From NCBI GenBank assembly GCA_913056255.1, contig CAJXLN010000007.1, forward strand, positions 1 to 64,000: DNA of 64,000 nucleotides, given 5' to 3'. Made by a program: the position numbers and the translations under genes. Positions 4,492-19,876 of this stretch are shown in pieces. The DNA is from an uncultured Thermotogae bacterium. Lineage in GTDB: Bacteria; Thermotogota; Thermotogae; Mesoaciditogales; Mesoaciditogaceae. Below the pieces are notes generated by a model that saw only the letters and a list, made by a program, of their open reading frames with translations, was not told the DNA's origin and made no database searches. The stretch's first letter is position 1, and each line of letters opens with the position of its first letter.

Positions 4492-4519
4492 AAAGTCAAC
4501 TGTTTAGACATGATCACAT

Positions 4520-4545
4520 CTACTACTCCAAAGGATAGTAGTTTT
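4520..4545 (+). promoter_or_regulatory. Hairpin with short T-run between fusA and tuf
   Basis: CTACTA (4520-4525) pairs with TAGTAG (4536-4541). The stem continues as TCC/GGA after a bulged C at 4526, with an AAA loop, and is followed by TTTT. It may be a weak attenuator or a processing site that lets tuf be expressed differently from fusA. No clear promoter for tuf is seen in the 103-nt gap. Confidence 0.45.
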
Positions 4546-4594
4546 ACACCGAATTTTTATAAGGATTAAAATATTTCAAGGAGGTTGAATTTCA

Positions 4595-8684: not shown

Positions 8685-8690
8685 TAAAAA

Positions 8691-8711
8691 GACAGCGTCA
8701 ATACGCTTGTC
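8691..8711 (+). other. Hairpin between rplB and rpsS
   Basis: GACAGCGT (8691-8698) pairs with ACGC-T-TGTC (8703-8711), with a one-base bulge and a CAAT loop. There is no T-run, so it is not a terminator; mRNA processing or stability are possible roles. It lies in one of the few gaps of 50 nt or more in the superoperon. Confidence 0.35.
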
Positions 8712-8734
8712 TAAAACAAAAGGAGGAAAAAAGT

Positions 8735-14796: not shown

Positions 14797-14810
14797 GGAG
14801 GATCCTGATA

Positions 14811-18720: not shown

Positions 18721-19119
18721 ATGGCTAATAAAAAACTGAAATCCAAAAGAAAAACGCGTAAAAAAAAGATCCATGTGGATTATGGTGTGGCTCACATATC
18801 ATCCACCTTTAACAATACGATAATAACGATCACGGATAAAGATGGAAATGTTTTGACATGGTCAAGTGGTGGAGATATTGGCTTTTCCGGTTCAAAGAAA
18901 TCAACTCCGTACGCAGCTCAAATTGCGGCCGACAAGGTGGCAAAAGATGCTATGAATATGGGGATAACAAAAATAGATATTTTGGTAACTGGACCGGGAC
19001 CAGGAAGAGAGTCAGCAGTTCGGGGCCTTCAAGCCGCGGGACTTGACGTTCAAGGTATAAAAGACATCACTCCGATTCCACACAATGGTTGCCGTCCCAA
19101 GAAAAGGCGAAGAATGTGA
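18721..19119 (+). CDS. rpsK: 30S ribosomal protein S11
   Basis: S11 lies in the platform at the E-site. It is 132 residues, with [34 protein letters not shown] and the C-terminal [18 protein letters not shown]. The N-terminus is strongly basic. It is followed by the longest gap of the superoperon, 130 nt. Confidence 0.98.
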
Positions 19120-19188
19120 GGAATTGAGTATGTACGGAATGAATGAAAACTTTATAAGAACTAAGGAAAGAATAACAACATCAATAAA

Positions 19189-19249
19189 AAGGAGGGCGGT
19201 GCATTCTCCCACGAGGTATATCTACGTGGTATCCTGCACCTAATTTATT
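19189..19249 (+). promoter_or_regulatory. Structured rpsD leader that loops the start codon to a distant Shine-Dalgarno
   Basis: The only good Shine-Dalgarno for rpsD, AAGGAGG (19189-19195), lies 54 nt upstream of its ATG. The sequence between folds into a two-part hairpin. GGTGCA (19198-19203) pairs with TGCACC (19235-19240). After a 5x5 internal loop, CCACG (19209-19213) pairs with CGTGG (19225-19229), leaving an 11-nt apical loop. When folded, the Shine-Dalgarno is effectively about 11 nt from the ATG (19250). Pairing is seen directly. That the structure controls rpsD, perhaps by S4 binding, is inference. Confidence 0.6.
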
Positions 19250-19876
19250 ATGGCAAGGTACACTAATTCAGTTTGTAGACTTTGTAGAAGAGAAGGAATT
19301 AAGCTTTTCTTAAAGGGAGACAAATGTTACACATCCAGTTGTCCTTTTGAGAAAAGGCCTTATGCTCCTGGACAACATGGTAGAGATCGAATGAAATTGA
19401 CTCATTATGCCAAACAATTGAGATCAAAACAGGCCATGAAACGCAGCTACGGGATATTTGAAAAACAATTCAGAAAATATTTTGACAAAGCCGTGAAAGC
19501 TAAAGGTATCACTGGAAGTATGCTGATCAAAATAGTAGAATCCAGATTGGATAACACGGTTTACAGACTCGGGTTTGCTCTCTCAAGGGCTCATGCACGT
19601 CAAATGGTCAATCATGGTCATATTCTTGTGAATGGTAGAAAAGTCGATATACCTTCATATGAATTGAAAGCCGGAGACACGATAGAGATCAGTGAAAAGA
19701 TCAGATCCAATTCAGATGTCAAACAAGCTATAGAAGTCTCTTCTTCCAGAAATGTATCTCCATGGCTTGAAGTTGATTACGATCTTTTCAAAGGAACATT
19801 TGTGAGAATGCCTGAGGTGGAGGAAGTAAATCTTCCAATAGATGTTCAGGATATCATTGAGTTGTACTCCAAGTGA
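19250..19876 (+). CDS. rpsD: 30S ribosomal protein S4, zinc-finger type
   Basis: S4 nucleates 30S assembly and is the autoregulator of its operon in E. coli and Bacillus. The 208-residue product carries an N-terminal zinc finger (C9, C12, C26, C31), the conserved [15 protein letters not shown] and the S4 RNA-binding domain from about residue 96 ([23 protein letters not shown]). No ribosome-binding site lies directly upstream. See the structured leader at 19189-19249. An in-frame TAA sits two codons before the ATG. Confidence 0.97.

Follow-up and report, generated by a model that had tools for sequence, protein, structure and literature searches.

An IscB-type transposon end as the probable source of a proposed split ribosome-binding site before rpsD in a Thermotogota genome

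IscB, the ancestor of Cas9, is encoded by transposons of the ISC (OMEGA, IS200/IS605-like) kind, and the right-end hairpins of IS605-type elements are substrates of the transposase. Insertion beside a short fixed motif has reportedly been described both for HEARO elements, by Weinberg in 2009, and for ISC elements, by Kapitonov in 2016. IsrB enzymes recognize NTGA, NTG, or NTGG motifs next to their target (PMC9581776), and motifs of this type would explain insertion at start codons. IStrons, which combine a group I intron with an IS element, carry a self-splicing RNA that makes their insertion harmless (PMC4227781). Translation initiation across a hairpin has been described for two genes of bacteriophage T4, in which folding shortens the distance between the Shine-Dalgarno (SD) sequence and the start codon from 22 to 5 nt (gene 38) and from 27 to 11 nt (gene 25), as established by mutation and probing (PMC3014915). 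In the literature searched, outside of which the original HEARO and ISC papers lie, no earlier report describes an IscB right end as carrying a ribosome-binding site.

The spacer upstream of rpsD, the gene for ribosomal protein S4, in an uncultured member of the Thermotogota resembles each of these systems in part. As at the split sites of T4 (PMC3014915), a distant SD would be brought near the AUG by a hairpin, and the final spacing of 11 nt is that of gene 25; the gap at rpsD, however, is 54 nt and not 22–27 nt, the intervening structure is the right end of a transposon, the gene encodes a ribosomal protein, copies of the arrangement are scattered among many genes, and its function at rpsD is putative. 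Likewise, a mobile element would carry an RNA device that renders its insertion harmless, as IStrons do, but by rebuilding a ribosome-binding site rather than by splicing itself out. The closest likeness is to IscB transposons with HEARO (omega) RNA (NF040563, RF02033), which have the same right-end block GAAAGGAGG, a hairpin with a pyrimidine-rich 5 × 5 internal loop, an adjoining start codon, and DNA homologous to the rpsD copy over about 95–105 nt. The rpsD copy differs from these in the lack of iscB and omega RNA, neither of which was found in the rpsK-rpsD spacer (nor was iscB found in the 89% complete genome), and of a recognizable left end, for which reason it is classed here as a miniature derivative or remnant and not as a full element. 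It also adjoins the start codon ATGG, whereas ATGA is present at 72 of 74 sampled ends, a motif that is not independent evidence because the model used to find those ends (R3, below) itself contains it.

The DNA analyzed (the window) is a 64-kb stretch, one contig of a 1.6-Mb metagenome-assembled genome of a Mesoaciditogaceae-like Thermotogota bacterium (G000). The features of the spacer and its flanking genes are the following:

18721..19119, + strand: rpsK (S11), the upstream gene, with its stop codon TGA at 19117–19119
19120..19134, + strand: what is probably left of the native ribosome-binding site of rpsD after decay, matching the spacer of same-family genomes in position and length; inferred boundary
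19130..19243, + strand: upstream ORF of 37 codons, a possible coupling ORF, traversing the insert in frame with the K/E-R-R codons of IscB
19135..19249, + strand: lineage-specific insertion of ~115 nt with an approximate left boundary, probably descended from an IscB transposon (ISC/IS605-type) by way of its 3′ end
19189..19195, + strand: AAGGAGG, the SD, equivalent to the GAA AGG AGG (E-R-R) codons of the IscB C-terminus
19198..19240, + strand: right-end hairpin, within the match to model R3 (19181–19250, 24.0 bits)
19250..19876, + strand: rpsD (S4), start ATGG

No gap in the superoperon exceeds the 130 nt between rpsK and rpsD, the next being fusA-tuf with 103 nt, and rpsD is alone among 33 superoperon genes checked in missing an SD at the usual place (rpsC, the start of which was miscalled, was left out). 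The AAGGAGG lies 54 nt from the ATG, and the intervening hairpin is composed of an outer stem GGTGCA/TGCACC (19198–19203/19235–19240), an internal 5 × 5 loop TTCTC/TATCC (19204–19208/19230–19234), an inner stem CCACG/CGTGG (19209–19213/19225–19229), and a terminal loop of 11 nt, with 9 nt separating it from the start codon; once it is excised, 11 nt remain. The coordinates and sequence, the gap, the SD distance, and the two-part hairpin agree on re-reading the window with an earlier interpretation made from the letters alone (the sequence-only reading). The predicted energy of the hairpin is −18.1 kcal/mol at 37°C and −10.2 kcal/mol at 60°C, with both stems at a probability of at least 0.96 in the ensemble between 37 and 65°C and the SD and AUG predicted to be mostly unpaired. 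When the 54 nt are dinucleotide-shuffled 2000 times, 3 of the resulting sequences fold as stably at 37°C and none of these also leaves 7–11 nt, so that the hairpin exceeds chance expectation; among 6396 47-mers of the window, 24 reach its stability, and the folding of the spacer as a whole is unexceptional (z 0.06). Searches of phages and plasmids returned nothing meaningful.

The insertion becomes apparent upon comparison across the phylum. The rpsD gene was located in 101 Thermotogota genomes, and 90 rpsK-rpsD spacers were read, 89 of them from genomes other than G000. All 89 have a GGAGG 7–11 nt 5′ of the rpsD start, whatever the length of the spacer, and the element is absent upstream of rpsD in every one. 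In the nine same-family genomes the spacer consists only of GGAGGTTCTAAnnn or a similar sequence of 14–15 nt that includes the native GGAGG, so that ~115 nt must have been inserted in the lineage of G000; two of these nine belong to the same genus, with S4 proteins 88–92% identical to that of G000 and an ordinary 15-nt spacer. The corresponding stretch in G000 reads GGAATTGAGTATGTA, versus GGAGGTTCTAAnnnn in the relatives (14–15 nt), the native SD being reduced to GGA.

A different interpretation, put forward in the sequence-only reading, holds that S4 binds the hairpin and represses rpsD. S4 is known to autoregulate its synthesis in several bacteria. S4 leaders, known from the alpha operon, are moreover found directly 5′ of rpsD in Bacteroidia and Flavobacteria (PMC7247131), a precedent that makes such a switch conceivable and at the same time removes the novelty claimed for a position inside the alpha operon. 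As a conserved S4 switch, the element was rejected by the comparison of the 90 spacers, and unlike those leaders it has no structural match, as nothing relevant was found with Rfam at the rpsD site at gathering or relaxed thresholds. The same element also precedes unrelated genes (hisS, folD, pdxT, rdgB, and others), the mostly free SD and AUG give no evidence of sequestration, and the single irregular hairpin shows no sign of a multi-helix S4 site. Regulation by S4 is thus very improbable. The same reading had named covariation in an alignment of the spacers as a check; the element is absent at rpsD in the relatives, and strong covariation is present in the hairpins of IscB ends.

An assembly artefact has also to be weighed, given that the species is represented by a single assembly and the insert is unique to it. 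The insert is, however, single-copy in the genome and so not easily misjoined through a repeat, it fits exactly between the stop and start codons, and homologous elements occupy the same kind of position in other genomes, all of which makes an artefact hardly credible.

In other Thermotogota, the same block forms the 3′ end of a long ORF that encodes IscB (NCBIfam NF040563, E 1.4e-100), and HEARO (omega) RNA (RF02033) is present at the opposite end of four such loci. The block GAAAGGAGG encodes the E-R-R of the IscB C-terminus, and both arginines are AGG in six of six ERR-bearing IscB ORFs, in which AGG makes up 21% of arginine codons; the elements are related and the counts not independent, but the bias suggests that the nucleotide string AGG AGG may itself be under selection. 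The hairpin following the block is the transposon right end. Its outer stem varies by species (GAGCACA/TGTGCTC, TCTGCA/TGCAGA, GTGGCAA/TTGCCAC, GCGTCA/TGACGC, etc.), the inner stem is likewise variable, and the pyrimidine-rich 5 × 5 loop is nearly constant (UUCYY/UNUCC). Among 17 IscB-type ends, 92% of cells are paired and 44 double-sided changes are found, versus 13.8 ± 3.2 in shuffled alignments and at most 10 when the alignment is slid; fitting this alignment to a model of the G000 repeats biases it towards that structure, but the excess over the slid versions is too large for this bias to be a likely sole cause.

A covariance model of these 17 ends (R3), built from other genomes with neither G000 sequence nor rpsD and after exclusion of two matches of an earlier model judged false (G087 L263 and G005 L272, found with R2, the model of the G000 repeats alone), identifies ~130 copies, which are spread over 27 of the 103 Thermotogota genomes searched. 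Two other genomes, G072 with 22 matches and G025 with 24, show large expansions. Among 74 sampled ends, 62 adjoin the start codon of an ORF with 60 or more codons, compared to 28% of ATGA sites in general, and these adjoining ORFs, unlike the ATGA itself, are independent evidence. Of the 62, only 3 have an SD-like 4-mer near the start. Besides rpsD, 14 copies could be partitioned; in these, the SD lies 52–61 nt from the ATG and 7–15 nt once the hairpin is looped out, a range that includes the values of 54 and 11 nt at rpsD.

The covariation fits an RNA hairpin in translation and a single-stranded DNA hairpin in transposition alike, and conservation of the AGGAGG could reflect recognition by the transposase. 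The hairpin and AAGGAGG may accordingly be imagined to serve transposition only, as single-stranded DNA recognized in the manner of IS605-type right ends, with rpsD starting poorly and independently of an SD at a cost that is tolerated. This is rather unlikely, considering that rpsD and hisS are essential genes of which one copy each was found, that the use of AGG AGG for the ERR arginines is far above the codon background, and that all partitioned copies retain a residual spacing of 7–15 nt.

Within G000 itself, a scan of ~0.8 Mb for genes without a near SD but with one beyond a hairpin returned several matches that had one sequence in common. This repeat is present in 17 copies by BLAST and 18 by covariance model, and its end reads GAAAGGAGG-AT-GCGTCAA-TTCCT-CTCTCCAATGAATTGGAGAG-TTTCC-TTGACGC-AAATTCT-ATGA, sharing with rpsD the design of an SD and a hairpin with a 5 × 5 internal loop, here followed by ATGA. 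In 15 of the 17 BLAST copies, the end coincides with the ATG of an ORF with 60 or more codons. The genes behind the repeats include hisS, folD, pdxT, rdgB, a nuclease similar to SbcD/Mre11, a biotin carrier protein, an ABC permease, and others, and so do not make up a regulon. The repeat is not present in the two same-genus genomes, and an exact empty site can be seen at pdxT, where G015 reads GTGAGGTGTTTAT directly followed by ATGA and the G000 element sits between ...CTTTAT and ATGA, shifting the native SD away from the start. The repeats often extend 70–80 nt further upstream with hairpins and a −10-like box, and the miniature repeat may deliver a promoter as well; in copies L232–L248 and others, the upstream hairpins are CTCCCGCATAAATGCGGAGG and GCTTGTGAGAGCAAGTC and the box is TATAAT/TACAACT. 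Rfam gave no match at the miniature copies.

The relationship of the rpsD insert to these ends was not evident from direct searches, as neither BLAST for repeats of the insert in G000 and 20 relatives nor R1, a covariance model of the rpsD hairpin alone, returned further copies, a misleading outcome caused by the divergence of the copies in stem sequence. R2 likewise did not find rpsD with default filters and scored it at 11.9 bits without them, and DNA profiles of the G000 repeats, alone or mixed with ends of other species, did not rank it; among DNA profiles, only that of the other species’ ends does so. R3, in turn, has its top match in the window at 19181–19250 on the + strand (24.0 bits, E 0.0057), followed by a second of 2.1 bits, and its best chance match in 228 kb of relatives’ DNA reaches 18.9 bits. 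The E-values are rough, and the score would be borderline genome-wide but is strong for one site named in advance. With an nhmmer profile of the last 110 nt of IscB ends, 19157–19246 ranks first in the window (E 0.0045, the second being 0.53), and the local DNA alignment of the spacer to IscB ends surpasses all of 1000 shuffles and 1000 random stretches of the window. The aligned part takes in ~30 nt of iscB coding DNA 5′ of the SD (GAAAGAATAACAACATCAATAAAAAGGAGGG vs. GAAAGAACATCATCATCATTATGTGAAAGGAGGG in G025), and the rpsD hairpin has the outer stem, UUCYY/UNUCC 5 × 5 loop, and inner stem of IscB ends. Derivation of the rpsD insert from an IscB-type transposon end is well supported by these sequence comparisons.

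Taken together, it is probable, at roughly three chances in four, that an IscB-type insertion replaced the native rpsD SD with a split ribosome-binding site. A non-autonomous or decayed remnant of an IscB-encoding transposon would have inserted immediately 5′ of the rpsD start and displaced the native SD, and its right end would supply a two-part replacement: a strong SD (AAGGAGG, once a pair of AGG arginine codons at the iscB terminus), followed by the hairpin, 9 nt, and the start codon of the host. Folding of the hairpin in the mRNA would then bring the SD to within 11 nt of the ATG, where it could be used by 30S subunits. The same design precedes many other genes and so belongs to the element rather than to a switch specific to S4. 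As rpsD and hisS are essential and a single copy was found of each, some working initiation must exist. From the insertion, the homology, the geometry, the covariation, and the position at start codons, all of which are observed, we infer that ribosomes would start translation across the folded hairpin, with the SD kept for this purpose. The proposal of the sequence-only reading that the SD is reached across a looped-out hairpin thereby gains support from many independent copies, covarying stems, and a conserved geometry.

The main rival accepts the same insertion but has rpsD translated through termination and reinitiation. The 37-codon ORF, which went unmentioned in the sequence-only reading, starts with ATG at 19130 near the rpsK stop, behind a weak GAGG SD, carries AAA AGG AGG in frame, and ends with TAA at 19243, such that a ribosome reading it would melt the hairpin, terminate at 19241–19243, and restart 6 nt further on. 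An ORF of this kind arises by chance in 3.5% of shuffles, reinitiation across less than 30 nt is common in bacteria (PMC5972666), and the usual G000 copies end the element frame in a TGA that overlaps the ATGA. The ORF has no match in Pfam or PHROGs, and the similarity of its peptide to IscB tails is not significant. Such coupling would, however, leave the strong internal SD unexplained and require a restart codon without a nearby SD. In addition, the stop of the corresponding frame ranges among copies from overlapping the start to ~33 nt upstream of it, whereas the SD-hairpin-ATG geometry is kept, and this variation favors the split site. Reinitiation is therefore a somewhat unlikely explanation on its own, though it may contribute, and split-site initiation is the most likely mode at rpsD.

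A wider proposal, held tentatively at a little under even odds, is that the IscB/OMEGA transposons of Thermotogota, whose motif for insertion is matched by start codons, have evolved a right-end split ribosome-binding site, so that an insertion at a start codon removes the native SD and supplies a new one via the transposition hairpin, even essential genes such as rpsD and hisS survive, and the element becomes the initiation region of the host gene. If so, a translation-rescue device would reside in the much-studied mobile elements from which the ancestors of Cas9 are encoded, with a single structure acting as DNA hairpin in transposition and as RNA hairpin in initiation. It would further constitute a cellular, phylum-wide counterpart of the split site known from two genes of phage T4, replicated naturally dozens of times in front of different genes, and account for the spread of elements aimed at start codons without loss of the genes that they enter. 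The copies would also provide a ready set of sequences on the maximal SD-AUG distance that is permissible when the gap is folded. In copies L331, L333, L334, and L351 (from G046, G048, and G049), the inner hairpin is enlarged, giving an element end of 97–112 nt with the ATGA retained, and these would represent a natural test of the size limit for looping out.

Other spacers of the superoperon also vary in length between lineages. The fusA-tuf spacer (window 4492–4594) is 103 nt long versus 31–34 nt in relatives owing to a lineage-specific insertion, which holds an attenuator-like CTACTA...TAGTAG hairpin followed by TTTT, 5′ of the native SD. The rplB-rpsS spacer (window 8685–8734) measures 50 nt in G000, 56 nt in G015, and 19 nt in other genera, and those of G000 and G015 each have their own, differing small hairpin 5′ of the SD. 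The rpmD-rplO spacer, another ribosomal-protein junction with lineage-specific expansion in the same genus, is 14 nt in G000 (window 14797–14810), 53 nt in G015, 80 nt in G014, and 12 nt in other genera. Unlike at rpsD, the extra sequence in these three spacers of the genus sits 5′ of the native SD.
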